Origin: Shewanella sp. MTB7
GTDB taxonomy: Bacteria > Pseudomonadota > Gammaproteobacteria > Enterobacterales > Shewanellaceae
Length of the DNA stretch: 64,000 bases
Direction: 5' to 3'
NCBI RefSeq assembly: GCF_027571385.1
Contig: NZ_CP085636.1
Span: forward strand, 5,070,501-5,134,500
Both the position numbers and the translations under genes were made by a program. Positions 8,967 through 60,452 of the stretch are shown one piece after another; the stretch's first letter is position 1; each line of letters begins with the position of its first letter. The notes below the pieces were generated by a model. It saw only the letters and a program-made list of their open reading frames with translations. It searched no databases and was not told the DNA's origin.

Positions 8967-8980
8967 ACCATTCTCTTGGT

Positions 8981-9000
8981 TCTTGGGGAATGCCCCAAGA
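8981..9000 (+). other. Intercistronic hairpin after the sulfatase gene
   Basis: TCTTGGGG, loop AATG, CCCCAAGA: an 8-bp stem 15 bp after the stop codon without a T-run. It could lower read-through or stabilise the upstream message. Confidence 0.5.
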
Positions 9001-9065
9001 GCCAGTAACAAATCACTCCCCTTCCTTTTTTAGAGGCAACCGCCTTTCTCTACTGAGCCTACAAT

Positions 9066-9857
9066 ATGAAAAAATTATCCTTAATCAGCACTCTCAACCT
9101 CATTACTCCCTTGAGTTTGGTAGCACTGTTTTTTACGCCAACCGGTTTTGCTCAGCAGTGGGATGGTGAAACTCAAGATATGTCTGACCCACTCGCGGTA
9201 TACACTCAAGCGGGTGTGGGCGTTGCTAACCAAGGGATTAACTTAAAAATAGGCAACGCCTATGACACCGGAGATATAGATACCATGGCGATGAACATCG
9301 TCGAACTAAAAGGCGTAGGCGGTGACAGCCTTGGTCTAGATGGTAATAACTCTATCAACAACTTACGTTTTCGTAACTTCAACTTAGACAAAACCAATGG
9401 CCGCGGCTCGCAAGTTGATGTGAACTGGGACTTTAATACCAACCTAGGAAGTGCATCTTACAGTTTTATTCAAGCACTGCCGGCATTGGGTCCACTTCAA
9501 CTTTATCCACTTGCAGGCATAGGCGTCACTCTTACCGATACTGCAGTCATTAGAGGCGATGAAAATCCAGTTGGTAGCGTGGGATACGCCATTCCATCAA
9601 GCTTTGCAGTGGTGGGGACTTATGCAAAAATTGCCATCACAGATAAAATCTGGCTTAACTATAACCCCATGTATATGACCACGTTAAACAGCAACCAATA
9701 TATGTCGGATATGATGGATGGTTTTTACCACGAAGTGGTGGCCAGTTATCAGATAAATCCCAGACAAAATATTCGATTCTTCGTTAACTATGCAGCAACT
9801 GAATTTAATAAAGATAACAATATTGACTGGCGAATTGAGTTTAACCACCAGTTTTAA
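9066..9857 (+). CDS. Predicted outer-membrane beta-barrel protein
   Basis: 263 residues, signal peptide ending TGFA-QQW, then alternating amphipathic strands and a terminal FNHQF. The C-terminal phenylalanine and strand pattern point to an outer-membrane barrel. I do not recognise the family. It follows the sulfatase gene by 99 bp and could be co-transcribed with it, perhaps helping entry or exit of amphipathic substrates; that is inference. A long hairpin follows the gene. Confidence 0.65.
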   Translation: MKKLSLISTLNLITPLSLVALFFTPTGFAQQWDGETQDMSDPLAVYTQAGVGVANQGINLKIGNAYDTGDIDTMAMNIVELKGVGGDSLGLDGNNSINNLRFRNFNLDKTNGRGSQVDVNWDFNTNLGSASYSFIQALPALGPLQLYPLAGIGVTLTDTAVIRGDENPVGSVGYAIPSSFAVVGTYAKIAITDKIWLNYNPMYMTTLNSNQYMSDMMDGFYHEVVASYQINPRQNIRFFVNYAATEFNKDNNIDWRIEFNHQF

Positions 9858-9871
9858 TCATAAACTATCAT

Positions 9872-9921
9872 AGAGATGCTCAAAATGCCCATCTAACGCT
9901 ATAGGCATTTTGAGCATCTCT
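9872..9921 (+). terminator. Long hairpin after the outer-membrane protein gene
   Basis: An 18-bp perfect stem (AGAGATGCTCAAAATGCC at 9872-9889, complement at 9904-9921) with a 14-nt loop. No clear T-run follows, so factor-independent termination is uncertain, but the stem is very stable. Confidence 0.55.
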
Positions 9922-10053
9922 GTTACAGAAAACCGATCTGATTAACCCAATTATCAATGTCGATCTCTTGATAAAATTCTAAATTTCTGGTTTAATCGAA
10001 ATATAAAGTTGTTTCGATAGCGACAAATTAGGCACGACATCAAAGGCATTATT

Positions 10054-11514
10054 ATGAGTAACATGAACGTTCAGTTAGTGGATAAACAGATCACCGATGA
10101 ATTGTGTGAATGGTCAATTATGCACGGTATTGCCTTTAAAAATAGTGATGGCACCGCAAGGCACTGTCCATTCAGTATTGCACCTATTTCTATGAAACGA
10201 CATGTTTATCAGCATTTATTGAAAGTGACTCCCTTACTCACCAAATTGATCAGCCGGGTGTCTGAAGATCATTTATTTCTGCAGTCATCATTGAGTAAGA
10301 TGGCGAAAGCAGATCCATTTTTCGAACGTTTAATGATGCTACATCACCAGATCCATGGGATTAAAGGTCAGCCATTATCTCCGGCTCGCCAGCCGCTGCT
10401 GCTGATGAGAACCGATTATATGGATGACCGTCAGCAAGGAGCTAAAGTCATTGAATTCAATGGTATTGCAGCAGGTATGGGGCCATTTGGTAAACGGATC
10501 ACTCAGTTGCACCAATTTATGCAAAACCAATGGCCAGAGATCTATCATGACTGGGCTGAATCTCTTGAGGCAATCTCTGCCGACAACAACTGCCTTGAAC
10601 AATTAGCTGACGCTATTGTTCACTCTGCACGTAAAATACAAGCAGATTTCAATGAAACAGACCAAGCCACTTTCTTGATGATTGTGCAGCGGCATGAAGA
10701 CAATGTTTACGATCAGCACCTGCTTGAAGTTGAACTTAGAAAACAAGGCATTAGAACCGTTAGACGAACCTTTGATGAGCTGGCATCTCAAGTGTATACA
10801 GGTGAAAGAGAAAGGCTAATGCTTAGAGGGGTCGGCACTGTTGACGTGGTTTACCTACGTGCTGGTTATCAATATATGGACTATTTTGCTCCCCAATTGC
10901 GTGAAGATATCTGCTGTCAAACATTAAGCCAAACACGAGCCTTTATCGAGCAACATAATGTTGCTGTTAACGCGACAGTAAGCCAGCAGCTAGCAACCAG
11001 CAAAACAATGCAGATGATATTGACTATGATGCCTGAACAGGAGTTTGCCCCTTGGGGGCTTTCTCTAGAGGAAGTGAGGCTAGTGAAAACCGTATTGGCT
11101 GAAATGTTACCTATCAATCAAGATGTTATCTCATGGTTTGCATCCGAAGCAGATCAAAATGAATGGGTTTTAAAAAACCAAGGGGAAGGTGGAGGTCATT
11201 GTATCTTTGGCAATGAGATCAGTGACAAGCTTAGTCAACTGAAAGTTGGTCAGTATGATGCCTGGGCACTAATGAAACGCTTGCATCCACACGAGCGTGA
11301 ACGTCCAACCATTGCAGTACGTGATGGTGAACAGATAAAAGTCGATGACTTAGTCAGTGAAATTGGTTTGTTTACTGCTTTTTTTAATGGTGAACCAGTG
11401 ACTGAATTGGATGGTTATGCGGGTTACCTAGTACGAAGCAAGCCAGCAAAAGAGAATGAGGGCGGTGTACACAGTGGTCAAGGAATTTTAGATTCTATCA
11501 CCTTGGTTGATTAG
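10054..11514 (+). CDS. Glutathione synthetase, eukaryotic-type (ATP-grasp) homologue
   Basis: 486 residues, the size of eukaryotic glutathione synthetases (about 474) and much longer than bacterial GshB (about 316). Signatures of the eukaryotic type include VDVVYLRAGYQYMDY, the glycine-rich ATP loop VLKNQGEGGGHCIFGNEI, and the C-terminal lid with LVRSKPAKENEGGV. The family joins gamma-glutamylcysteine (or a related dipeptide) to glycine. No glutamate-cysteine ligase lies nearby, so the true substrate is open: glutathione, or another peptide ligation. AAAGG precedes the ATG. Hairpins bracket the gene, suggesting it is transcribed alone. Confidence 0.8.
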   Translation: MSNMNVQLVDKQITDELCEWSIMHGIAFKNSDGTARHCPFSIAPISMKRHVYQHLLKVTPLLTKLISRVSEDHLFLQSSLSKMAKADPFFERLMMLHHQIHGIKGQPLSPARQPLLLMRTDYMDDRQQGAKVIEFNGIAAGMGPFGKRITQLHQFMQNQWPEIYHDWAESLEAISADNNCLEQLADAIVHSARKIQADFNETDQATFLMIVQRHEDNVYDQHLLEVELRKQGIRTVRRTFDELASQVYTGERERLMLRGVGTVDVVYLRAGYQYMDYFAPQLREDICCQTLSQTRAFIEQHNVAVNATVSQQLATSKTMQMILTMMPEQEFAPWGLSLEEVRLVKTVLAEMLPINQDVISWFASEADQNEWVLKNQGEGGGHCIFGNEISDKLSQLKVGQYDAWALMKRLHPHERERPTIAVRDGEQIKVDDLVSEIGLFTAFFNGEPVTELDGYAGYLVRSKPAKENEGGVHSGQGILDSITLVD

Positions 11515-44133: not shown

Positions 44134-44658
44134 ATGTACAGCCAATTGGCCAGAATATTCATTACAATCATAGCGCTATTTATAATGAATCAGGCACAAG
44201 CCGATATCATCTATAAGTGTGTCAAAGGCGAAAAGGTCGTATTCAGTCAAACCACCTGCCCCAAAGAGTTCAGTCAACTAAAAATAGAGTTTGATCTAGG
44301 AATAACAACCGAGACGGATTCCGATAAGCGTGAAAATAAAATCGATCCAATTAAAATATTACTCACCGATGACTCTCTCTCTATCGAGAAACAGATGCGC
44401 CTACTCGAAGCTGAGACTTATCGGTTAAATCAAGAAAATAGTTACTTCGAGATCCTAAGAACCAGTGAGTTACAAAAAGTCAGACGTCAAAAGTTTTGGC
44501 AGAAAAAAGAGACCAGTGATCCTGAATATCTTGCTGAAATAGAAACAATAAATATTTACTTTGATGAGATAATAGCTAGTAATAAAAAAATTATAATACT
44601 CCTCGATACTCGCAAATCACAAATTAAAATGGAAGTGGAAGATAAAGCAGCGCAATAA
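44134..44658 (+). CDS. Exported DUF4124-like protein
   Basis: 174 residues. A signal peptide (cleavage near AQA-DII) is followed by DIIYKCVKGEKVVFSQTTCP, the short two-cysteine DUF4124-type domain. The rest is charged and probably helical (about 85-170). Function unknown. It converges on the small precursor gene at 44691, with 32 bp between the stop codons, and may be unrelated to it. Confidence 0.65.
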   Translation: MYSQLARIFITIIALFIMNQAQADIIYKCVKGEKVVFSQTTCPKEFSQLKIEFDLGITTETDSDKRENKIDPIKILLTDDSLSIEKQMRLLEAETYRLNQENSYFEILRTSELQKVRRQKFWQKKETSDPEYLAEIETINIYFDEIIASNKKIIILLDTRKSQIKMEVEDKAAQ

Positions 44659-44690: not shown

Positions 44691-44888
44691 TTAACCGCGA
44701 TCATTATGTGGCGGAACTTCACAAAACTGGTGACCAATACAGATGCCGCCATCCACGGCATTACCGCCCGATACAGACTCTAATAAAGCGTCCTCAATAA
44801 GCGTTATTCTATTATTTTGAACACTGCCAGACTCAGCTAAAGTTTGATTTGCGATGCTTGCTTTATCTTTATTCGTAGTTGTTTTCAT
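44691..44888 (-). CDS. Double-glycine-leader peptide precursor (separate copy)
   Basis: 65 residues. The leader contains RITLIEDALLESVSGG, which matches the leaders of the small peptides at 52.0-52.6 kb (IELIEEALLENVSGG). The predicted mature part of 23 residues is NAVDGGICIGHQFCEVPPHN... with two cysteines and a Pro/His tail. AAGGATG lies upstream of the ATG. The leader should be cut after GG by the C39 domain of the exporter at 47123-49303. The gene is divergent from the TPR protein and lies apart from the main operon. Confidence 0.75.
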   Translation of the reverse strand: MKTTTNKDKASIANQTLAESGSVQNNRITLIEDALLESVSGGNAVDGGICIGHQFCEVPPHNDRG

Positions 44889-45257
44889 TTTTCCATCCTT
44901 AAATTAAAACTCTGCCAAATTGGCACTGTATTTTCCCTATAACACCCGGTTCATCGCTACCCATCACATACCCAATGTGTTAACAATGGTTAGGTGCACA
45001 CTGTACGAATCACTAACCTGATGCATTTTAACAATAGAAGTAAGGATGATTTGAGGGCTTAACAAGGTTGATTACCTCGCAAAACTAGGGTTTGTTAGCT
45101 TAGTAAACTATTAACAAACAAAAGAAAAAAACTAAAAACGTCCAAAATTAAAATTGGTTGCCGAAAAGCATAACATTAAAGAATAAAGCCTAAGATTGAA
45201 CAAAAAGTTCAACATGAGCCCTGAATAACAGATTAAAATTAACAAGGATGAACCAGT
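44889..45257. other. Divergent intergenic region, precursor and TPR gene
   Basis: 369 bp, AT-rich, with purine-rich tracts near 45120-45190. It should hold both promoters, but I see no clear operator or hairpin. Confidence 0.4.
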
Positions 45258-47063
45258 ATGTTCAAAAACTATCACTATAGCTTGGTCAGCTATTTAGTGT
45301 TTTCCCTTAGTCTTCTCTTTTCCCCGGGAGTCTATGCTGAAACTTGTTTAACCAGTCGTAATGAAATTAAAGATACCAGTCAAACAATCTTAATTTGTCA
45401 GCAGCAACTAAAACAAACCGCTCATGACTCTGAACGTTTTTACTCTCTGTCCCTCTCTCTTGCAAAACTTTATCAACAATCGGGCGATCTAAACTCTGCA
45501 AAGCTAATGCTAAATCAAGTATTAGCCAAATATACCAAGATTAACCAAATAGAGCAGGTCCAGGTAAACAGGCAGTTAGGGGTTATCTACTTTCATCAGC
45601 GTGATTATGAAAAATCATTTGATACTTTTGAACAAGCACTCAGCCTATCAATCAAGCTTAAAAACAGCACGTTTATCGCACTTGGTTACAATGATCTGGC
45701 CAATATTTATCATATCTATGGCGATCTCGAAACCAGCACCAGCTTGCTCTTAAAAAGCTACGACATTCATACGGCAGAACATAATGAACTTGGCCAAGCC
45801 AGTGTGCTCAATAATTTAGGTTCCCTCTATAAAGATAAAGGTGATTACAATGAGGCCATCGTTTCATACAGGAATGCTTACACTATCTACACTCGATTAG
45901 GCCGAGAGCTTCAAGCTGCTTTAACACTTTCAAACCTAGGTGAAACCTTTCAATTAAATGGTGATCCTGTTAAGGCTATTGAACTATTAAGTCAATCTGT
46001 TGAGAGCCTAAAACAGCTCAATTCATTTAGATTCCTAGCTGAGATCTACATTTTACTGGCTCAAATATCGGTTGACAATGTTTCAGCTGAGCAAGCTCAG
46101 TACTGGCTAGATCAATCCAGACTCACCACCAACTTAATTCAATCCTCGGAAAAAAACCCTAAATACTGGTTTGTTCAAGGCTTAGTATGGGAGAAAAAAG
46201 ACCAACTTGATAAGGCTGCTGAAAACTATGAAAAAGCATTCCAACAGGTTAATCAGTATAAGGAGTATCCTTTTCAAAAACAGCTCTACACGGCAATGGC
46301 TGAACTCAATGAACAAGTACAAGACTACGAGGCATCCAGTAAGTATTGGCGCATCTATGCGGATACTCTTAACTCGCAGTTGACACTGAAAAATACCATT
46401 CACTCAAAGAATATTCGCAGCACCTTTACTTTTGAACCAAGCGAGTCATCAGGCTTAAATACCACGATAATACTTATTCTTATTTTATCGGTGTTACTTG
46501 TTTGTCTCACCTTGTATATTTTTCTTTCGAGAAAAACCAAATTGACTCCGACATACAAAGAGGAATCTGCTAACGGGAATGGTTCAATAAAACAACTTGA
46601 AAAAGTCCCCTTTGGTAGCAGTGCTGCCACCGACACTGATGCTGTTCAAGCAGAATCTCGAATTTCGACTCTGAGCCTAAGTGAGAGTGAACAAGCAGAG
46701 CAGATCCGACATCAGTTGATTGAGTTAATGCACTTAGCGCTACAGATGTGGGAGGAATCGACGCAAACCAGCAAGCTCGAACTCGCTCAACAGAGTAAAA
46801 TATGGAGTGTGGGAATTGACGATGGACGCATAAGAGCCCGAGCCATGGAGCGGTACTTCGGTCTAAATACCTTACCGCAAAAACCCAGGTGGCGCTCTGT
46901 TGTACGAACCTGTAATTACGTTTTACAAAAGTGTCAGGGTAAAAGTCTTTATCGAGAGGAGCTAGAGGGTAAGCTAAAACATTTTCAGGATATGGTAAAA
47001 AGAAAAGCCATTATCGACAGTAAAAGCCCTGGGAACGATGAAGAGATCTGTGACCACCATTAA
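45258..47063 (+). CDS. TPR-repeat membrane protein with cytoplasmic C-terminal domain
   Basis: 601 residues. A signal peptide (ends VYA-ETC), about seven TPR-like repeats (roughly 60-370; for example ALGYNDLANIYHIYGDLETS and ASVLNNLGSLYKDKGDYNEA), one membrane segment (about 403-424) and a cytoplasmic tail. In the tail, residues 480-565 form a compact domain with IWSVGIDDGRIRARAMERYFGL and PRWRSVVRTCNYVLQKC. I have the impression that similar tails occur in other marine gammaproteobacterial TPR proteins; they look like a small regulatory or DNA-binding domain. It could sense periplasmic peptide and signal inward. AAGGATG lies 7 bp before the ATG. Confidence 0.6.
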   Translation: MFKNYHYSLVSYLVFSLSLLFSPGVYAETCLTSRNEIKDTSQTILICQQQLKQTAHDSERFYSLSLSLAKLYQQSGDLNSAKLMLNQVLAKYTKINQIEQVQVNRQLGVIYFHQRDYEKSFDTFEQALSLSIKLKNSTFIALGYNDLANIYHIYGDLETSTSLLLKSYDIHTAEHNELGQASVLNNLGSLYKDKGDYNEAIVSYRNAYTIYTRLGRELQAALTLSNLGETFQLNGDPVKAIELLSQSVESLKQLNSFRFLAEIYILLAQISVDNVSAEQAQYWLDQSRLTTNLIQSSEKNPKYWFVQGLVWEKKDQLDKAAENYEKAFQQVNQYKEYPFQKQLYTAMAELNEQVQDYEASSKYWRIYADTLNSQLTLKNTIHSKNIRSTFTFEPSESSGLNTTIILILILSVLLVCLTLYIFLSRKTKLTPTYKEESANGNGSIKQLEKVPFGSSAATDTDAVQAESRISTLSLSESEQAEQIRHQLIELMHLALQMWEESTQTSKLELAQQSKIWSVGIDDGRIRARAMERYFGLNTLPQKPRWRSVVRTCNYVLQKCQGKSLYREELEGKLKHFQDMVKRKAIIDSKSPGNDEEICDHH

Positions 47064-47122: not shown

Positions 47123-49303
47123 TTATCTAGCACTCGATGCTACCGGCATAGTATGTGTTGGTAGGTTATCCACTCTTCTCGCTTTACCGTAGTCTTCTTT
47201 ATTCACCTCGATACACTCGCCTTTGACAAACTTAACAATTCTATCAGCAGACATAATCGTTTGCGGCCTATGAGCAATCATTACTCGAGTAATATTCAAC
47301 TTACGTATCGAATTATTCACATGCTGCTCAGCGTGTAGATCTAAACTCGATGTTGCTTCATCTAAAAATAGAATTTTAGGGCGCTTATACAAGGCTCTGG
47401 CTAAAAGTAATCTCTGCACTTGCCCACCAGAAAGTGATGAGCCCATATCACCTATCAGCGAACGGTATCCCATAGGTAGCACCAATATATCCTTATGTAT
47501 CCCGGCTAATTGGGCGCACTCCTCTGCCCAATTCTTATCCGGATCTTGGCTGAAAAAGCTAATATTTTCCATTATGGTACCTGACAACAGCTGATCGTTT
47601 TGCAACACACTGGCAATTTGGCTTCTGAAATTGAGCAGTCCTGTCTTTCTAATATCTTGATCATCAACCATCACCGCACCAGATGTAGGTTTGAGTAAGC
47701 CTAACATCACCTTCATCAAGGTGCTTTTACCACAACCTGACGGCCCCACTATAGCCACTGATTCACCTGGTTTCACAGAGAGGTTAATCTCACTCAGGAC
47801 ATCTGGCTCTTCATCAGAATAACTAAAACAGATCTTATTCATCAACAAGGATCCAGTCACATTAAACTCTTCATCGACTTCACCTAAATCAGCCTCCTCT
47901 TGAGTCAGAGTGATGTCACCAAGACGCTCTAGGTGCAATGAACACATCTTAAATTCAATATACTTATCGATTAAGTTACTTATTTTCTGTTCGAACTGAG
48001 TTTTATAAGAGACAAAAGCCAGTAGCATCCCCACAGTGAGCAGATTATCCATCACCATAGAGGCACCGTAATAGATGACTAAAATATTCTCTAACCCAAA
48101 AATCAACATACTAGTCCAACTAAAAAGCACACGTAAACGCTCCACTTTAATCGAAGTATTTGCCGTATCAACATTATAGTTATCAAATAGATTCAGTCGG
48201 TCACTCTCTTTAGTGAACAGCTTAATGCTTTGTATCCCTCTAACTGACTCCATAAAGTTACTGTCTTTCTTTGCCGTACACACAATATTCTCACGGCTGA
48301 CACTTCTCAGTTTTTTATAAGAGATTGAACGAACAATCAAATATAAACCTGATGCAGCTAATACCAACAGCATCAAATCGACATTATAGATATACATCAT
48401 CACCAACAGGCCTATCACAATTAATCCATCAACCAAGCTCTCAATCAAGGTTGTGGTTAACAGGTTTTTGAGAGAATCCAATGAGCGAAATCGTGAAACA
48501 ACATCACCTATATGTCGCTTTTCAAAGAAATCCATCGGCAACTTAAACAGATGCCGAACAAGATTTGAGTTCATCTGCAATGACAGCTGGTTTCCCAGTA
48601 ACATTATCACCAAAGAGCGCAGCGCCGTAGAGAGCGCCTGTAAGAGCAACACACCACCAAATCCGAATGCCAGTATACTCATCAGACTGTAATCATTAGA
48701 AATGAGCACATCATCAACGGTGAGCTGCATATAAATAGGCGTAACTAAGATAAAACTCTGTAACAACATAGAGAACAGGAATACGGTCAAGAGAGATCGT
48801 TTCCAGCCAACAAGGTTTGACCAAAAAGAGGTGAGTGTGGCTTTAGGTGGCTCCTCCTGAACTTTAAAGTTACCAGATGGGGTAAACTCCATCGCCACCC
48901 CAGTAAAGCAAGTCGAAAGCTCCTCTTTGGTACAGATACGCTCACCCAGTGCGGGGTCATGCAAGTGATATCGATTACCAGAGACCTTCTTTAACACCAC
49001 GAAGTGATCTAAATTCCAATGCAAAATACAGGGTGTTTTGAGCTGATTAACAACATCAAGATCACACTTAAGCGCTCTGTGAGTTAACCCCACCTTGCCA
49101 GCAATGTCTGTCATCCCTTTTAAGGTAGAACCCTTCATCGACACGCGATGCAGTTGGCGTAACTGGAACATGTCAGTATTGTGGCCATAATAACTCGCGA
49201 TCATCGCCATGCAGGCAAGTCCACACTCAGCCGATTCTGTTTGTTGAATAACGGGTAATACATGACCGCCTGAAAAATTGATTCTATCGATAAGAGATGA
49301 CAT
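47123..49303 (-). CDS. Peptidase-containing ABC exporter (C39, bacteriocin/RiPP type)
   Basis: 726 residues. The N-terminal C39 peptidase has Q21, C27 (TESAECGLAC), H100 (NLDHFVVL) and D116 (LHDPALG), a complete catalytic set. Membrane segments follow (about 165-440), then an ATPase with GPSGCGKST, LSGGQVQRL and ILFLDEATSSLD. Such exporters cut double-glycine leaders and secrete the peptide with an HlyD-type adaptor and TolC. The ATG directly follows the adaptor stop codon. The substrates are almost certainly the small GG-leader genes upstream. Confidence 0.92.
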   Translation of the reverse strand: MSSLIDRINFSGGHVLPVIQQTESAECGLACMAMIASYYGHNTDMFQLRQLHRVSMKGSTLKGMTDIAGKVGLTHRALKCDLDVVNQLKTPCILHWNLDHFVVLKKVSGNRYHLHDPALGERICTKEELSTCFTGVAMEFTPSGNFKVQEEPPKATLTSFWSNLVGWKRSLLTVFLFSMLLQSFILVTPIYMQLTVDDVLISNDYSLMSILAFGFGGVLLLQALSTALRSLVIMLLGNQLSLQMNSNLVRHLFKLPMDFFEKRHIGDVVSRFRSLDSLKNLLTTTLIESLVDGLIVIGLLVMMYIYNVDLMLLVLAASGLYLIVRSISYKKLRSVSRENIVCTAKKDSNFMESVRGIQSIKLFTKESDRLNLFDNYNVDTANTSIKVERLRVLFSWTSMLIFGLENILVIYYGASMVMDNLLTVGMLLAFVSYKTQFEQKISNLIDKYIEFKMCSLHLERLGDITLTQEEADLGEVDEEFNVTGSLLMNKICFSYSDEEPDVLSEINLSVKPGESVAIVGPSGCGKSTLMKVMLGLLKPTSGAVMVDDQDIRKTGLLNFRSQIASVLQNDQLLSGTIMENISFFSQDPDKNWAEECAQLAGIHKDILVLPMGYRSLIGDMGSSLSGGQVQRLLLARALYKRPKILFLDEATSSLDLHAEQHVNNSIRKLNITRVMIAHRPQTIMSADRIVKFVKGECIEVNKEDYGKARRVDNLPTHTMPVASSAR

Positions 49304-50563
49304 TTATCTGTTCCTCAAGCTATAAATTGGTTCCAAAACCCACTGAACTAAGCTGCGATTCTCCAGTTTTACACTCGCCTCCAACTCCATTCCTACGCCC
49401 AATGTGATCTCTTCACCTTGAGCGCTCACTGACTGCGAATCTAAGCCAACGATCACCTTGTAGACCGCTCCAGCTAACTCAACACTGGTTTCCAGTTCCT
49501 CCGGAAGAGAGATCACTTTAGACACGCTCAACACCTTACCGGTCTGCAGACCAAAATGTTGATATGGGAAAGCGCTGTAGCGCATAGACACCTCTTGAGC
49601 TGGCTTAATAAAGCCGATAGACGTCGCCGGTACGTAAAGCTCAGCTTGAAGCTGTGAATCTTGTGGGATTAGGCTCACCATCACGTTACCAGGACGAACA
49701 AACTCCCCTACATGGGTCAGCTGATTGCCTATCACCCCATTTAATGGTGCATAGACCCGGTAATCGATATTGGATGAAACCTCAGTGATCCTTTGCTTAT
49801 TCTCAATCAAGTTGCGCTTCAGGCGATTGAGCTTCTCTTTGAAGTGGCCAGGTTTAAGTTCAAGTTCATTGTTAAGCTCAACCAACAGGGATTGAGTCGA
49901 ATTTAACTTCATCAGTAGATCATTTCGCTTAGACTGCAGCGATAAATGCTCCTCAATCACTTGGTCCAACTGAGCTTGATTGGTATGACCCGCCTTTAAT
50001 AACTTTTCATTACGAGCCAGACCAGCAGAGGATAACTCAACTCTTTGATCGTAAATGGCTAGCTGCTCATTGATCTGTCTAATCTCAGTGGCTTTCGATG
50101 AAACTTTGCTTTTAATTAAAGCAACCTCTAAGCCTAATGCCTCCTCTGCGATGGTAATGTCTCGCGCCAAGGAAGACTGCAGCTCCATCTGTTGAGCTAA
50201 GATGCTTTGATCTAAGTTTTGGTCAAAAGAACTGTGTCTATCTGTCGAGATCACATAAAGAAGATCACCTTTGTTTACCGAATCTCCTTGCTGAACTAGT
50301 TGTTCTATAATTTGGCCCTCTCGCCTCGCACTGACCTTAACTAATCCCTTATCAACCGTAATCACACCAAATACGTCAGCGTATTTGGTGTAAGAACCAA
50401 CAAAAAGAAAAACCAATAAGCCGGAGACAACCAGAAACATTAACACAGCTATCCACTGATACTCCTTAGGTTGCCTTAGAAAAACGGTCCCTAGAGAGTG
50501 GGTATCACCTTTCTCTAAAACCTCTTTTCTAAATAGCTGTTTAGATGGACTTAGCTCTTCCAT
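49304..50563 (-). CDS. HlyD-family membrane fusion protein (peptide export adaptor)
   Basis: 419 residues. One N-terminal membrane segment (about 38-60), a beta-barrel/lipoyl part (KVSARREGQIIEQLVQQGDSVNKGDLLYVIS) split by a long coiled coil (about 115-250), then YAPLNGVIGNQLTHVGEFVRPG. It links the ABC exporter in the inner membrane to an outer-membrane channel such as TolC, which is not in the window. TAGGAG precedes the ATG. It is cotranscribed with the exporter. Confidence 0.92.
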   Translation of the reverse strand: MEELSPSKQLFRKEVLEKGDTHSLGTVFLRQPKEYQWIAVLMFLVVSGLLVFLFVGSYTKYADVFGVITVDKGLVKVSARREGQIIEQLVQQGDSVNKGDLLYVISTDRHSSFDQNLDQSILAQQMELQSSLARDITIAEEALGLEVALIKSKVSSKATEIRQINEQLAIYDQRVELSSAGLARNEKLLKAGHTNQAQLDQVIEEHLSLQSKRNDLLMKLNSTQSLLVELNNELELKPGHFKEKLNRLKRNLIENKQRITEVSSNIDYRVYAPLNGVIGNQLTHVGEFVRPGNVMVSLIPQDSQLQAELYVPATSIGFIKPAQEVSMRYSAFPYQHFGLQTGKVLSVSKVISLPEELETSVELAGAVYKVIVGLDSQSVSAQGEEITLGVGMELEASVKLENRSLVQWVLEPIYSLRNR

Positions 50564-50591
50564 GACAGGCTCCTATAACCATATGTTTAAA

Positions 50592-51158
50592 TTAAGCCGC
50601 ATCAGAAAGTTCTGCATGACGTCGAGCTAACTCTTGTAGCAATGACTCACTACGTTTAAGCTCTGTGTTTAATGCCATCTCACATAAACTTTTAGATGTA
50701 TAACGCTGAGGATATTGCTTATACCAGCGCATAAATGTGTGTTCACCTAGCTGATCATAAATAAACTCATACTGCCAACGCTTCTTATTCATTAATGCTG
50801 TTTTACGCTCAGATAGAGAATAGCCATCTAGCTCACTCTCAGCCGAAGCAACACCTTCTGCTGTCATAGGAGAGTGATGAATATAGCCACCAAAAAAATC
50901 CTTACAGAACTGACCGTAGTCACGGGTAAATAACATAAAGTTATGCCACATTTCATCCAACACCACTAATGCACGGTCGATAACAACAGGCTGATCAATT
51001 CCTTGTTCACGCGCTTCTGCAGCCATCCATAACCAACGTTTTACATCTTCAAATATCTCTACTGCTTCAGCTTCTTCAACGCCATAGAGCTTAATAAAAC
51101 GATCGGTAACATTTTTATTCTGGTAAGCGAGTACAGCTTCTATCTTTGACTTTTTCAT
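50592..51158 (-). CDS. Island protein B, GRDP-like motif (modification, immunity or chaperone candidate)
   Basis: 188 residues, cytoplasmic, no signal peptide. Central motif LDEMWHNFMLFTRDYGQFCKDFFGGYIHH (about 67-95) with conserved W71, H72, C85, H94 and H95. It resembles the glycine-rich domain protein-like (DUF1399) signature of plants and bacteria, which may bind metal. It is paralogous to the 189-residue protein at 51412 along its whole length (KKRWQYEF.YDQLG also shared). GGAGG precedes the ATG. Its location between a precursor gene and the adaptor suggests a role in peptide maturation or protection; the function is unknown. Confidence 0.6.
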   Translation of the reverse strand: MKKSKIEAVLAYQNKNVTDRFIKLYGVEEAEAVEIFEDVKRWLWMAAEAREQGIDQPVVIDRALVVLDEMWHNFMLFTRDYGQFCKDFFGGYIHHSPMTAEGVASAESELDGYSLSERKTALMNKKRWQYEFIYDQLGEHTFMRWYKQYPQRYTSKSLCEMALNTELKRSESLLQELARRHAELSDAA

Positions 51159-51188
51159 ATAGCCTCCGAACAGGTTATTTAGGGGGAA

Positions 51189-51377
51189 TCACTCAGAAAT
51201 ACAAATAGGCATACATATAGGGTCACAACGACCCGGCAAACAAATATCAGAGCACGAGGAAGCTAGTCCGCCAGCAACGTTATTCAATAACTGCTCCTCA
51301 ATGAGTACAAACTTCTCATCCTGTGCTTGTTGGCTGCCAACATGACTTGGTTGATTATCTACAGTTAATTTTTTCAT
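51189..51377 (-). CDS. Cysteine-rich double-glycine-leader precursor
   Basis: 62 residues from ATG 51377 (AGGAG upstream). The leader ends FVLIEEQLLNNVAGG; the mature part of 25 residues begins LASS and contains CSDICLPGRCDPICMPIC (five cysteines, with three CX3C pairs). It lies between the two GRDP-like genes. It is clearly the same leader family as the three 41-42-residue peptides upstream, but with a different core pattern that includes prolines and a glycine. Confidence 0.82.
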   Translation of the reverse strand: MKKLTVDNQPSHVGSQQAQDEKFVLIEEQLLNNVAGGLASSCSDICLPGRCDPICMPICISE

Positions 51378-51411
51378 AGTGAGCTCCTGCATAATGAGGT
51401 TTCTGTACGCC

Positions 51412-51981
51412 TTAGACAGCAATGGTTTGCTTAGTAAATTGGCTCAGTTCAGGGGTAAGCACCGTCTCGTCACCTAATCGTTCTTGACGATTCAAAGCCA
51501 GATTTAATAAAGCACTAGGGGTATATTTTTTAGGGTATTCCCTGTACCAGAGCAGAAACTCCTCTTTACCTAACTGGTCATACACAAACTCATATTGCCA
51601 ACGCTTTTTTTCCAACATCTCCTGAGCAATCACCTGTGGCTCCTTGCCCTCCATTGAATCTCTGAACTCCTTTTCCATCGACTTAGTCATTGGCATATGG
51701 TTAATATAATGACCAAAAAAATGTTTACAAAATTTGATGTAATCGTTAGAGCAGAGAATAAAGTTGTGCCACATCTCATCGATAACGATAAGGGGAGTAT
51801 CGATAGATAACTGAATATCTATGCCCAGATTACGTCTTTGGTAACAGAGCCACAGCCATTTTTTTGCACTATTGAAGATGACGCTTGTATCCGCTTTATC
51901 TATGCCATAAATCTCCATAAAGCGCTTCTCTACTGCCGGATTACTGTAGGCCAGTACCTCACTTAATGTTGTTTTCTCCAT
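51412..51981 (-). CDS. Island protein A, GRDP-like motif paralogue
   Basis: 189 residues from ATG 51981 (AAGGAG upstream; a longer frame starts at 52032 without support). It carries IDEMWHNFILCSNDYIKFCKHFFGHYINH (about 67-95); compared with its paralogue at 50592 the pair H94-H95 is N94-H95, while H72 and C85 remain. It shares KKWLWL near residue 41 and KKRWQYEFVYDQLG. It is located directly downstream of the three small peptide genes. Role unknown: a modifying enzyme, leader-binding factor or immunity protein are all possible. Confidence 0.6.
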   Translation of the reverse strand: MEKTTLSEVLAYSNPAVEKRFMEIYGIDKADTSVIFNSAKKWLWLCYQRRNLGIDIQLSIDTPLIVIDEMWHNFILCSNDYIKFCKHFFGHYINHMPMTKSMEKEFRDSMEGKEPQVIAQEMLEKKRWQYEFVYDQLGKEEFLLWYREYPKKYTPSALLNLALNRQERLGDETVLTPELSQFTKQTIAV

Positions 51982-52048
51982 GATATATCTCCTTGTAAGG
52001 CAGGATGCTCGGAACACTGCAGTTCCGAGCATTAGCCTAATACTCTAT

Positions 52049-52177
52049 TTAGTCATCGAAACAAAGTGATAGACAAAACTCGAGACAAAGCTCCAAGCAA
52101 AATGCTTCCGCACGTCCACCAGATACGTTTTCTAACAATGCTTCTTCAATTAGTTCAATCTTGTTATTTGTGTTCAT
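52049..52177 (-). CDS. Small peptide precursor 1, CX3CX3CX3C core
   Basis: 42 residues. Leader MNTNNKIELIEEALLENVSGG (21 residues), then a 21-residue core beginning RAEA and containing FCLELCLEFCLSLCF, ending DD. Four cysteines are spaced exactly every fourth residue. TAGGATT lies upstream of the ATG. It is almost identical to the peptide at 52234, so the pair arose by tandem duplication. A double-glycine cleavage site fits the C39 exporter of the same operon. Confidence 0.85.
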   Translation of the reverse strand: MNTNNKIELIEEALLENVSGGRAEAFCLELCLEFCLSLCFDD

Positions 52178-52233
52178 GGGTAAATCCTATTTAATTTATT
52201 AAATGTTTAATTCAATTTGTAGTTAATATTAAT

Positions 52234-52362
52234 TTAGTCATCAAAACAAAGTGATAAGCAAAACTCAAAACAAAGCTCCAAGCAAAATGCTTCCGCACGT
52301 CCACCAGATACATTTTCTAACAGTGCTTCTTCAATTAGTTCAATTTTATTATTTGCGTTCAT
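52234..52362 (-). CDS. Small peptide precursor 2, CX3CX3CX3C core
   Basis: 42 residues. Same leader as precursor 1 except NAN for NTN; the core contains FCLELCFEFCLSLCF, one residue different (Leu to Phe). The start codon lies 185 bp upstream of the equivalent codon of precursor 1. AAGGAATTTACCC precedes the ATG. Most other base changes between the two copies are silent, a sign of selection on the protein. Confidence 0.85.
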   Translation of the reverse strand: MNANNKIELIEEALLENVSGGRAEAFCLELCFEFCLSLCFDD

Positions 52363-52438
52363 GGGTAAATTCCTTATTTAAGTTTATTTATTTGTATTTT
52401 AATTTGCGTTTAACGAGCATTGAGATAGCTAAACTCTA

Positions 52439-52564
52439 TTAATCAGGTTGAAAAATACATTGGATGCAACTAAGACAGCTGATACAGAATTCCTGCTCTC
52501 GTCCACCAGATACATTTTCTAACAAGGTTTCTTCAATTAGCTCGATTTTGTCATTTGTTTCCAT
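52439..52564 (-). CDS. Small peptide precursor 3, CX2CX2CX2C core
   Basis: 41 residues. Leader ends IELIEETLLENVSGG, nearly the same as precursors 1 and 2; the core begins REQEF and contains CISCLSCIQC, ending IFQPD. The four cysteines are spaced every third residue instead of every fourth. GAGGATT lies upstream of the ATG. First gene of the presumed operon. Confidence 0.85.
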   Translation of the reverse strand: METNDKIELIEETLLENVSGGREQEFCISCLSCIQCIFQPD

Positions 52565-53106
52565 GGTTAAATCCTCATTTCAATTTATATATAGTTAGTT
52601 ATTTATGCCGTAAAGTGTTTATTTCCCTAAAACCTGTTTCACTAACCTGCTCTCATGTCATGTTTTGGTTTGAGAAGTTAAGTCCCTATATAGGTCGTCA
52701 ACTCTTATCTATATACACGTCAATCAAACTTGCTTTTGAATCAGCCCTTCTGGGATTGAACAACTTCGGGGCTGACTTCATTTAGCGATATTAAAACCAT
52801 GATGGGTAGGAGCATTAAGGGGTATTCACAGGAATATACGGGGTGTAACGACGGGGTCTTTTAAAAGTTAATTTACTGATAAAATTTAAATTTTTAGTGA
52901 ATCCGTCCTAAAACGCCCCGCTAAAAAATTGCCATTGACGATTATTATTGGCGTTAAATAAGGGGGGTTTATTGATTAATTGAGGATAAATAGAGAAGTG
53001 TTTAACATTTGATAGCGGAAATGAGCTAATTAATGAGCTTAGTGATTAAATTTATATGAAGAAAAGAGAAAATATGACCGAAATTAACTGGCCACTGTTG
53101 TAGTGC
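52565..53106. other. Intergenic region upstream of the peptide operon
   Basis: AT-rich, no convincing gene. It must hold the operon promoter on the minus strand. A 7-bp inverted repeat, TCAGCCC (52741-52747) and GGGCTGA (52769-52775), with a 21-nt spacer lies about 180-210 bp before the first peptide gene. Confidence 0.4.
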
Positions 53107-53169: not shown

Positions 53170-53946
53170 TTAACTTCTTAAGCCAATTCCACGGCTAATT
53201 AAGTAATAAGCCAACGCCCACAAACTGACACAAAATCCAACCATCACAGCGATCGAGAGTGGAATGCTGATATCCGCATAGCCTAAGAAACCATAGCGAA
53301 ATACATTAATCATATAGACCACAGGATTAAGCTGGGACACCCCTTGCCAAAAATCAGGCAACAGAGATAAGGAGTAAAATACGCCCCCAAGATAAGTCAG
53401 TGGCGTCAGTACAAAAGTAGGGACAATACTGATGTCATCATAGCTTTTGGCAAATATCGCATTGATTAAACCGCCTAATGAAAACAAGATTGAAGTTAGT
53501 AATACCGTCACAGCAACCAATCCAGCATGTTGTAAGCGAATATCAACGAAAAACATGGCCACAAACGTCACAATAGCACCGACACATAAACCTCGAGCGA
53601 CACCACCGCCCACATAACCAGCAATAATCACATAATGTGGTACTGGTGCGACGATTAACTCTTCTAGATTACGCTGAAACTTAGCGCTAAAAAATGAGGA
53701 AGCTACATTAGAGTAAGACGCGGTGATCACAGACATCATGATAAGGCCAGGAGCGATAAACTCCATATAAGAAACCCCTCCCATCTCACCAATACGTTTA
53801 CCCACTAAATTGCCGAAAATAAGAAAATAGAGCGTCATGCTTATCGCCGGAGGCACTAACGTTTGTACCCAGATACGCGTAAAACGATTAATCTCTTTGG
53901 TTAAGATACTCTTAAATGCTATTGCATATAGGGCTCTCATATTCAT
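53170..53946 (-). CDS. yadH: ABC-2 type transporter permease, YadH-like
   Basis: 258 residues with six predicted membrane segments and the ABC-2 signature region (LGGVFYSLSLLPDFWQGVSQLNPVVYMINVFRYGFLG). It pairs with the ATPase just upstream, whose stop overlaps its start by 4 bp. Gene order yadH-yadG-hpt matches E. coli. The substrate is unknown; it is probably an exporter. Confidence 0.88.
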   Translation of the reverse strand: MNMRALYAIAFKSILTKEINRFTRIWVQTLVPPAISMTLYFLIFGNLVGKRIGEMGGVSYMEFIAPGLIMMSVITASYSNVASSFFSAKFQRNLEELIVAPVPHYVIIAGYVGGGVARGLCVGAIVTFVAMFFVDIRLQHAGLVAVTVLLTSILFSLGGLINAIFAKSYDDISIVPTFVLTPLTYLGGVFYSLSLLPDFWQGVSQLNPVVYMINVFRYGFLGYADISIPLSIAVMVGFCVSLWALAYYLISRGIGLRS

Positions 53947-54953
53947 GCTGATGCCCCTTTATCAACCGCTACATTGTTAACTGACGCTTGTAGTTCACCA
54001 CTCTTATTTGTCTGAATAGCGCCTCTTTTCACCAACTCCACAAACAACTCCTCTAAACGGTTCGCTTTATTGCGCATAGATAGAACCTCAATACCTTGCT
54101 CACTCAACTGAGCAAAAACATGGTTAATACTCTGCTCTTTGGCAACATCTATCTCTAAAGTATGGGCAAAAGTTAAACGACAGGGAAAGCCTTCGAGCTC
54201 TGGGACTTGGCTCAAATCAGCACCGAGATCTAAAATAAAGGTTTCAAGATTCAAACGACTAAGCAGTGACTTCATACTGGTACATTCAACCAAGACTCCC
54301 TTGTCAATAATACCAATATTACGGCACAGCATCTCAGCTTCCTCCAGGTAGTGAGTGGTCAAGATAATCGTCACTCCCTGTTGATTTAGCTCAGTCAAAA
54401 AGGTCCACATAGAACGTCGAAGCTCAATGTCTACACCTGCTGTAGGTTCATCTAGGATGAGTAATTTTGGTTCATGCATCAAGGCACGAGCAATCATAAG
54501 GCGGCGTTTCATACCACCAGAAAGCGCCATGGCTGGACTATCTCGTTTCTCCCATAAATCCAACTGAGTCAGGTACCTCTTCGCACGCTCCATAGCAACA
54601 GATCGTGAAACGCCATAATAGCCCGCTTGGTTAACGACTATCTGTAGTACCTTTTCAAACTGATTAAAATTAAATTCCTGTGGCACTAGGCCAATGCACA
54701 ATTTTGCCAGTTCAAGTTCATGGTCAATATCATGCTCAAACACTGACACTTTGCCCGATGTTTTTTGTACCAGTGAGCTGATCACGCCAATCGTCGTTGA
54801 CTTACCTGCACCATTGGGACCAAGAAGCGCAAAAAAGTCACCTTTCTCAACCGCTAAACTGACCCCTTTGACCGCTTCAACACCACCTTTATACGTTTTT
54901 CTTAGATCAGTGATCTCAAGGGCGTAAATAGGGGCATTCTCTTTATTTGCCAT
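53943..54953 (-). CDS. yadG: ABC transporter ATP-binding protein, YadG-like
   Basis: 336 residues. Walker A GPNGAGKST, signature LSGGMKRRL, Walker B LLILDEPTAGVD, H-loop TTHYLEEAE, then a C-terminal domain of the drug or lipid exporter type. AGGATTCAC precedes the ATG. It is slightly longer than E. coli YadG (308) at the C-terminus. Confidence 0.9.
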   Translation of the reverse strand: MANKENAPIYALEITDLRKTYKGGVEAVKGVSLAVEKGDFFALLGPNGAGKSTTIGVISSLVQKTSGKVSVFEHDIDHELELAKLCIGLVPQEFNFNQFEKVLQIVVNQAGYYGVSRSVAMERAKRYLTQLDLWEKRDSPAMALSGGMKRRLMIARALMHEPKLLILDEPTAGVDIELRRSMWTFLTELNQQGVTIILTTHYLEEAEMLCRNIGIIDKGVLVECTSMKSLLSRLNLETFILDLGADLSQVPELEGFPCRLTFAHTLEIDVAKEQSINHVFAQLSEQGIEVLSMRNKANRLEELFVELVKRGAIQTNKSGELQASVNNVAVDKGASA

Positions 54954-59393: not shown

Positions 59394-60452
59394 TTAATCA
59401 TCTTTATACAACTCTTGAATCGCTTTAATCTCCGAGGTGCTGGCAACAAAAACATCAACTAGATCAGGATCAAAGTGAATGCCAGATTGCTCCTTAATAT
59501 AAGCCATAGAATCATCAAGGGTCCAAGCCTCCTTGTAAGGTCGTGAGGTCGTTAGCGCATCAAATACATCGGCAATACACATATTCTGCCTTCAATGGGA
59601 ATTGCTTGTCCCTTAAGTCCTTTACTGTACCCCGAACCATCCCACTTTTCGTGATGATGAATAGCAATCGATCTTGCCATCTGAATCATCATAGAGGGAT
59701 GCTCATCAAATAATTGCCTCACACTATCAACATGTTTTTTCATTAGAGAAAATTCATCATCATTAAGCTTACCAGGCTTTGTTAAAATATCTGAAGCGAT
59801 CATGATTTTACCTATGTCATGCATTGGTGCCGCTTTCTCTATCATAAAGGCAACTTGTTCGTTTAAACCCAGTTTACGCGCTAAAAGGCCAGAGTACTTA
59901 CCTACTCTAAGAATATGCTTACCTGTGGTTTCATCATGTAACTCAGCAACTATCGCCAGTTTATTAATCAGGAACTCTGTAGCTTGTTCCAGTTCTAACG
60001 TACGCAACTGCACTCGCTTCTCGAGCTCATCATTCAAGCGAGATTGTAGTCGATGCGCTTTGATAATGTTGAGCTGGTTCACCACTCGCAGCTTAAGTTC
60101 ATACTCATTAAACGGTTTGCTTATAAAATCATTTGCGCCACCTTTTAATGCCTTAATATGTGATTTTTGATCGCTAAGACCGCTGACAACGATAACTGGC
60201 AACGCCTCTGAGCTATAGTCAGTCCGAATCAGATCCAGCACTTGATAACCACTAAGGTATGGCATTTCCAAGTCAAGGATCACCAACATTACATTCAAGT
60301 TCAGCCATCACCTTACGAGGATCGGTGACACTAGTAATGCTTAAATCCATATCAATTGTTTTAAGTATCTCATTCATAACAAGAACATTAGTGACGGAAT
60401 CATCACAAATAAGAACTGTCACCTTACCTAACTCACCAGCATTTACACTCAT
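59394..60452 (-). pseudogene. HD-GYP response regulator broken by two frameshifts
   Basis: Three consecutive frames together make one receiver plus HD-GYP protein. The receiver N-terminus (VTVLICDDSVTNVLVMNEIL, start 60452, TAGGGAA upstream) changes frame near 60285-60296, consistent with one extra base, into VILDLEMPYLSGYQ. The HD-GYP part (HILRVGKYSG, MHDIGKI, HHHEKWDGSGY) changes frame again near 59580, consistent with one lost base, into CIADVFDALTTSRPYKEAW. Intact relatives are phosphorelay-controlled c-di-GMP phosphodiesterases. The region is otherwise well conserved, so it is either a recent pseudogene or two sequencing errors. Confidence 0.75.

Follow-up and report, generated by a model that had tools for sequence, protein, structure and literature searches.

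A conserved C39-exported cysteine-peptide cassette in Shewanella, with PF27765 proteins as candidate maturation proteins

We analyzed a 64,000-nucleotide stretch of the genome of Shewanella sp. MTB7 (NZ_CP085636.1, positions 5,070,501 to 5,134,500; hereafter, the window). It contains a cassette of genes for an ATP-binding cassette (ABC) exporter with a C39 peptidase domain, an HlyD-type adaptor, two PF27765-type proteins, five small precursor peptides, and a regulator (Table 1). The cassette is a real and conserved system for C39-exported cysteine peptides, and it is absent from the descriptions that we found in the literature. (Our search covered titles and the beginnings of abstracts, with subscription papers outside its scope, and nothing in these linked PF27765 or GRDP to such peptides.) Sequence comparisons support the exporter, the leaders, their co-occurrence, the domain assignment of the regulator, the phasing of CC dinucleotides, and a match between the type of PF27765 protein and the type of core. 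Most likely, this is a system akin to those for ribosomally synthesized and post-translationally modified peptides (RiPPs), in which PF27765 proteins act on the peptide. The cores may be modified, and the products might be used for antagonism or for metal binding. If PF27765 does modify cysteine-rich peptides, then it gives access to a natural-product family that RiPP mining by known maturases would overlook.

A probable dedicated export cassette for short cysteine-rich peptides

The first-pass annotation of this DNA described a complete C39 exporter with an HlyD adaptor and a pair of paralogous proteins from the cytoplasm. It also listed four small same-strand genes with a shared leader and a fifth such gene at 44691. 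All of these hold up. The exporter has the C27, H100, and D116 that had been listed, and Q21, Walker A, LSGGQ, and Walker B are intact as well. A peptidase domain with its cysteine, histidine, and aspartate is fused to an ABC exporter, and precursors with GG (or GA) leaders adjoin it, both of which are hallmarks of double-glycine export. The two cytoplasmic proteins are 45% identical over 164 amino acids. An AGGA- or GAGG-like site lies upstream of each small gene, as judged by eye, which agrees with the ribosome-binding sites that had been annotated. Because of the positions of the Shine-Dalgarno sequences, we preferred starts at 51377 for precursor 4 and at 51981 for paralogue a.

To find precursors, we used a profile of the leader and core with 15 training rows, including the three precursors at 52049-52564; precursors 4 and 5 were outside the training. 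Across the host genome (one contig of 6.37 Mb), the profile has matches in five places at E ≤ 0.01, with E values from 2.5e-23 to 7.7e-4. Because these are exactly the five precursors, they are not due to chance. The cores of the core operon have 20-25 residues with four or five cysteines. The core of precursor 5 is unlike the others, with a conserved C-x3-QFC (..GHQFCE..). Among 5.77 billion proteins, a core profile had 39 matches at E ≤ 0.01. The named hosts were Shewanella, Alteromonas, Paraglaciecola, and Thalassocella, and all of these proteins were described as hypothetical except for one “Bacteriocin” (P0154).

We then compared 11 loci with this type of exporter: eight from Shewanella (including this one) and one each from Alteromonas, Paraglaciecola, and Teredinibacter. 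All 11 have leader peptides. Among 99 related genomes, nine had matches to the leader and core profile. The match was strong (E < 1e-6) in six of these (G000, which is the host genome, G001, G014, G022, G026, and G047). These six are the genomes with the cassette; all have PF27765 genes, and the order of the PF27765, HlyD, and exporter genes is identical in all six. (The 11 loci are from these six genomes and from S. nanhaiensis, S. corallii, Alteromonas ponticola, Paraglaciecola marina, and Teredinibacter.) In S. marina (G001), the cassette is spread over two contigs, and the core leader is on the other contig, where it is broken off at the contig's end. Of the remaining matches, two were weak and at most 2 kb from other PF27765 genes (G019 and G021), and one was in a frame that contains stops (G053). 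A search with paralogue a found matches at E ≤ 1e-3 in 17 of the 99 genomes, several of them weak and distant. The first-pass annotation had proposed to look for the leader motif beside the exporter, and it would have taken a lack of conserved co-occurrence as evidence against the system. That objection fails because all 11 loci of this exporter type have leader peptides. Judging from these sequences, there is good support for a system dedicated to the export of very short cysteine-rich peptides, and cleavage after the GG and secretion of the cores would be expected.

PF27765 proteins are found next to cysteine-rich peptides in five phyla

Paralogues a and b have no significant Pfam match in the library that we searched, which lacks a profile for PF27765. 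The precomputed label PF27765.1 is on protein b and on all of its relatives among the matches listed (120 of 306). Across 117 PF27765 members, there was no consistent Pfam family, with at most four members each among the matches listed (25 of 49 families). The label “GRDP-like” in the first-pass annotation was not confirmed: the PF07173 profile does not match the paralogues, and it was silent in 14 control genomes as well, while one relative (P0061) is so named by its source. Among the 117 sequences, F23, F38, D70, M72, W73, H74, F76, Y83, H97, P99, and W147 are invariant, and the nearly invariant residues include E71, C87, and H96. The resulting D-E-M-W-H ... H-H set could be an active site or a metal site. 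The predicted structure is all-helical and of high confidence.

We considered a PF27765 gene to have a cysteine-rich neighbor if a small open reading frame (ORF) with at least two cysteines in its last 30 residues was on the same strand and at most 250 nt away. (These definitions were fixed after a first look at the data.) The controls were the remaining long ORFs of these loci, 639 in number. L024 and L036 are from the same S. hanedai contig, and only L036 was counted. A small ORF with two or more cysteines was near PF27765 in 44 of 59 loci, as compared to 141 of 639 controls (P = 7e-16). Small ORFs with three cysteines (33/59 vs. 63/639) or with the leader pattern (41/59 vs. 68/639) gave similar contrasts. 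Without the nine loci of the Shewanella/Alteromonas/Teredinibacter type, the results were 36/50 vs. 115/531 for two cysteines (P = 1e-12), 25/50 vs. 52/531 for three cysteines, and 33/50 vs. 56/531 for the leader pattern. Adjacent peptides were found in Pseudomonadota, Bacteroidota, Bdellovibrionota, Cyanobacteriota, and a Planctomycetota genome, and none was found in the sole Myxococcota locus.

We also scanned 20 chosen operon neighbors, of 137 listed, with Pfam. These included a TonB receptor, two S9-type hydrolases, a methyltransferase, a cytochrome P450, three TauD proteins (in two loci), MatE, a pyridoxal phosphate-dependent decarboxylase, a fatty-acid desaturase, an S49 peptidase, and DUF6817. 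ATP-grasp-like and DUF4374-like matches were below the cut-off, and at least five neighbors had no family. The ATP-grasp-like neighbor, from one locus, matches the grasp-with-spasm maturase of NCBIfam at 336 bits (the cut-off is 230). A RiPP locus should have a modifying enzyme that acts on a precursor; what we found is the adjacency (44 of 59 loci), along with enzymes of RiPP types in a few of the loci. The suggestion in the first-pass annotation that the two cytoplasmic proteins, if not oxidation, may be responsible for any maturation is strengthened by adjacency across phyla. We propose that PF27765 is a maturation protein for peptides of the RiPP kind.

Some of these loci have recurring arrangements. 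In six Pseudoalteromonas loci (L048, L051, L052, L054, L055, and L060), the PF27765 gene is followed by genes for a methyltransferase and a cytochrome P450. (These were identified with Pfam in L048, and the other five loci have homologues.) The peptides of L051, L052, and L060 have the form MNK(S/A)KIINSLVNKNLE..RFCGCVIC... Seven Bacteroidota loci (L062, L064, L075, L079, L080, L081, and L087) have a PF27765 gene, a peptide of 33-39 amino acids with a ..HCSNCGHC..- or HCCGGSHCC-like end, and a conserved protein of about 300 amino acids from an unknown family. A homologue of the TonB receptor of L062 is in all seven except L079. These seven loci are candidate metallophore clusters.

The cysteine pattern of the core matches the type of PF27765 protein

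In a phylogenetic tree, the PF27765 proteins of the cassettes split into an a clade (support 100/98) and a b clade (98/94). (S. woodyi was not in the tree, and its paralogues were assigned by BLAST.) All 7 loci that have an a-type protein also have a core with the pattern C-x3-C-x3-C-x3-C, and none of the 4 loci that lack this protein does (P = 0.003, Fisher test, not corrected for descent). The core from S. marina is incomplete and was outside this analysis.

A TPR-ChiS regulator and phased CC arrays

Three features go beyond the first-pass annotation: a regulator, phased arrays, and the distinct core of the 44691 peptide. The regulator combines TPRs, a hydrophobic stretch, and a DNA-binding domain that is homologous to the solved domain of ChiS from Vibrio cholerae (Table 1). 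The legend to Figure 5 of PMC8092284 includes TPR among the domains that are joined to the ChiS-type domain. The window's regulator goes together with a precursor peptide and a peptide-export operon, a connection that the passages we consulted do not describe. The regulator and the precursor with HQFC (precursor 5 in the window) are divergent neighbors in all 10 loci for which we could read the two directly, and in the eleventh (a Thalassocella/Teredinibacter contig), they have adjacent locus tags. The pair seems to move as a unit, as it is on the opposite side of the operon in Alteromonas and Paraglaciecola.

CC dinucleotides recur every 11 bp in the DNA upstream of both units, the core operon and the HQFC precursor. 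Across 17 regions, which are from related species and hence not independent, the spacing of CC has z = 12.2 at lag 11 and 6.7 at lag 22 (11.1 and 7.1 in a repeat run). At lag 11, z = 8.6 for the 8 HQFC regions and 9.1 for the 9 core regions. Four-unit arrays are present in 11 of the 17 regions, as compared to 106 of 3,400 shuffled regions. (Two nanhaiensis regions were dropped from all of these counts and from the array model.) We trained a model of the array's unit on 15 of 19 regions, leaving out the window's two, with close relatives (hanedai and woodyi) still in the training. When we scanned both strands of the 64-kb window with this model, the two promoter regions of the cassette ranked first and (by a narrow margin) second. 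Precursor 5 belongs to the system, given its divergent position next to the regulator and the CC units upstream of both precursor units. We infer that the regulator binds DNA at these arrays. Also, both the window (at 52685-52694) and S. hanedai have a palindrome, CCTATATAGG, that separates the array from the first core gene; it was not seen in the S. woodyi region.

How the system might work, and other explanations

Our best explanation for the cassette as a whole, which we believe somewhat more than we doubt, is that short cysteine peptides are acted on by PF27765 proteins and exported by the C39 exporter, and that a TPR-ChiS regulator acts on phased arrays. In the cytoplasm, the PF27765 proteins would bind the conserved K..LIE..LL of the leader and act on the core, with each paralogue serving its own cysteine pattern. 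The C39 domain of the exporter would then cut behind the GG (or GA), and the core would leave with the help of HlyD and an outer-membrane channel that is encoded elsewhere. The regulator would sit in the membrane, with its TPRs probably in the periplasm and its ChiS-type domain in the cytoplasm. It would bind the 11-bp-phased arrays upstream of the core operon and of its divergent partner, precursor 5, so the peptide from precursor 5 (..GHQFCE..) may be the signal that it senses.

Several observations weigh against this explanation. PF27765 has no sequence match in PDB (the best E value is 0.86), its structure model has no fold match in the structure searches that we made, and no significant Pfam match gives it a reaction. 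By the test that we used, 15 of the 59 PF27765 loci have no adjacent cysteine-rich ORF, and in the fetched DNA of the 50 distant loci, just 6 have a match to this C39 domain. There is also an excess of cysteine-rich ORFs on the opposite strand (22/59 vs. 137/639 with two cysteines, P = 0.006; 11/59 vs. 50/639 with three, P = 0.009), so part of the adjacency signal may reflect long intergenic space. (For opposite-strand ORFs with the leader pattern, the counts were 10/59 and 68/639, P = 0.11.) The match between paralogues and cores is from 11 related loci, and NIFS-20-20 has a b-type protein without a visible b-type core. As for the arrays, four units are present in 8 of 9 core regions but in just 3 of 8 HQFC regions, and the window's own HQFC region lacks a four-unit array. 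The GG control for strand also has a peak, at lag 10 (z = 7.6; at lag 22, z = -0.9), so the dependence of the array on strand may be weaker than we described. The third match in the window (59605-59648, + strand) scores 18.1, close to the 18.7 of the second, and may be due to chance or be another target of the regulator. Finally, we infer sensing by the TPR domain from its position alone.

The main alternative is that the peptides are microcin-like bacteriocins, either unmodified or with disulphides, which are exported by C39, and that the PF27765 proteins are immunity proteins matched to the type of core. C39 and HlyD with GG leaders is the layout of class II microcins, one relative was named a bacteriocin by its source, and the matching of paralogue to core would fit immunity too. 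Nevertheless, we consider this alternative unlikely. PF27765 accompanies unlike peptides, and its near-invariant residues could form an active or metal site. In some lineages it is found with an ATP-grasp maturase, with P450 and methyltransferase, with TauD, or (in Bacteroidota) with a TonB receptor, which would be odd for an immunity protein. The window also differs from class II microcin systems in having several cores per locus, in the short length and the cysteines of those cores, and in having two PF27765 proteins and a TPR-ChiS regulator. Among the cassette genes, Pfam and NCBIfam recognised no immunity gene, a role that the PF27765 proteins could fill.

Less likely again is peptide signalling, in which the TPR-ChiS regulator would sense the short peptides as pheromones, and having several core genes would simply increase their dose. 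The constant pairing of the regulator with the HQFC precursor and the phased CC upstream of both units would suit it, but it leaves the PF27765 proteins and the variable core genes unexplained. The least likely of these alternatives is that the peptides bind metal, with regularly spaced cysteines that would act as extracellular chelators of copper, zinc, or iron. In its favor are the spacing of the cysteines (gaps of 3-3-3, 2-2-2, or 3-2-2) and several Bacteroidota loci in which a ..HCSNCGHC..-like peptide precedes a PF27765 gene and the TonB receptor, or a homologue of it, comes next. Against it, the cassette genes that we scanned include no transporter or regulator for metals. PF27765 may also be a chaperone, and the products may be plain disulphide peptides.

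There is also a broader proposal, about which we are a little more doubtful than confident. PF27765 proteins might be the class-defining maturases of an undescribed RiPP class that spans several phyla and has cysteine-rich cores. They would be small all-helical proteins, with no PDB fold match in our searches and with the near-invariant D-E-M-W-H/H-H set, that bind the K..LI...L of a short leader and carry out a cysteine-centered modification, with paralogues that are tuned to the spacing of the cysteines. The window's products would then be effectors, along with a signal for the TPR-ChiS regulator. The cassette offers a compact test bed for these ideas, for example in S. woodyi as a Shewanella host, with several precursors, two paralogues that are matched to cores, a defined exporter, and a regulator with predicted sites.

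Comparison with known systems

The first-pass annotation stated that the window contains no gene for a lanthipeptide synthetase, radical SAM, YcaO, or cyclodehydratase, and our searches bear this out for radical SAM and YcaO enzymes. Radical SAM proteins have 28 matches in the genome, none of which are in the window (the nearest is about 192 kb away), and YcaO is absent from the window, with its sole location in the genome at 2.51 Mb. Hence the cluster does not have the enzyme that a radical SAM or YcaO type of RiPP requires. Nor is this a lanthipeptide locus, as no LanC-like cyclase (PF05147) was found in the entire genome, by a search that was positive in 1 of 14 control genomes.

Some RiPPs with cysteine-rich peptides, such as chryseobasin and the bufferins, are made by MNIO enzymes (PF05114). 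They resemble this system in having cysteine-rich precursors and a partner protein, but the window has no MNIO, and in the searches that we made, MNIO had no similarity to PF27765. Three MNIO genes are found elsewhere in this genome (at 1.323, 3.839, and 6.155 Mb).

Among NCBIfam models, the closest to the window's exporter is for the NHLP bacteriocin exporters (TIGR03796), but the score of 491 bits is far below the cut-off of 853 bits, and NHLP systems differ from this genome in that it has no lanthipeptide cyclase. The GG (or GA) leaders, C39 peptidase-ABC exporter, and HlyD adaptor are as in the export of class II microcins and other double-glycine bacteriocins. PMC3223724 notes in general terms that small double-glycine ORFs occur in C39 exporter loci of Shewanella.

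Features and neighboring genes

Table 1. Coordinates of the cassette's features within the window
Feature	Position	Strand	Details
Precursor 5	44691-44888	-	Divergent from regulator; core NAVDGGICIGHQFCEVPPHNDRG; ORF and profile match
CC array	45038-45081	-	Three units of a four-unit frame, ~11-bp phase; upstream of precursor 5; second-best match, score 18.7
TPR-membrane-ChiS regulator	45258-47063	+	601 aa; TPR by Pfam; hydrophobic stretch at about residues 404-422
ChiS-family DNA-binding domain	46695-46976	+	Regulator residues 480-573; PDB 7KPO, E = 1.6e-16 over 94 aa
C39 peptidase-ABC exporter	47123-49303	-	726 aa; Pfam Peptidase_C39 (3.1e-36), ABC_membrane, ABC_tran
HlyD-type periplasmic adaptor	49304-50563	-	Family profiles
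PF27765-type protein b	50592-51158	-	188 aa; identical to P0001 (PF27765.1)
Precursor 4	51189-51377	-	62 aa from its ATG; core LASSCSDICLPGRCDPICMPICISE; ORF and profile match
PF27765-type protein a	51412-51981	-	189 aa from ATG behind AGGAG site; structure model pLDDT 93
Precursor 3	52049-52177	-	42 aa; near-copy of precursor 2; cysteine gaps 3-3-3
Precursor 2	52234-52362	-	42 aa; core cysteine gaps 3-3-3; ORF and profile match
Precursor 1	52439-52564	-	41 aa; core REQEFCISCLSCIQCIFQPD; cysteine gaps 2-2-2; ORF and profile match
CC array	52803-52846	-	Four units at 11-bp phase; upstream of core operon; best match in window, score 23.1

The cassette has the same neighbors in S. hanedai, S. woodyi, S. 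nanhaiensis, and S. waksmanii as in MTB7: panC and a gene for a 174-amino-acid protein on one side and a two-gene ABC transporter on the other. The 174-amino-acid protein (44134-44658; labeled DUF4124 in our analysis) has no Pfam family. In 4 of the 30 panC loci that we fetched, the permease gene of this transporter lies 0.5-1.4 kb from panC, in convergent orientation, and these four genomes have no match to the leader or to PF27765. Because panC and the permease gene adjoin without the cassette in these genomes, the transporter (53170-54953) probably does not belong to the system. For the other 26 panC loci, three of which have the cassette, there was no permease gene within the 3.8 kb that we fetched.

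A locus from S. abyssi (L056, which is the same as L030) and one from a metagenome-assembled genome of a Rickettsiaceae (L067) have a common gene order: an unknown protein of about 245 amino acids (50% identical), a DUF6817-type protein (51% identical), and PF27765. Their PF27765 proteins are sisters (support 100/99). Transfer or mis-binning are possible reasons for this likeness.

The MTB7 genome has a second pair of C39 and HlyD genes (in L032, at about 2.018-2.037 Mb, with the C39 gene at 7491-9644 of the locus). On the opposite strand from this pair, a 64-amino-acid ORF (11313-11507) has a leader-like start that ends in ..VNGG and a glycine-rich core, which is nearer to a classical class II microcin. 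In L029 (positions 9000-10919; genome G019), an interrupted PF27765 frame is followed by a hydrolase-like gene and then by an intact cysteine-rich double-glycine precursor.

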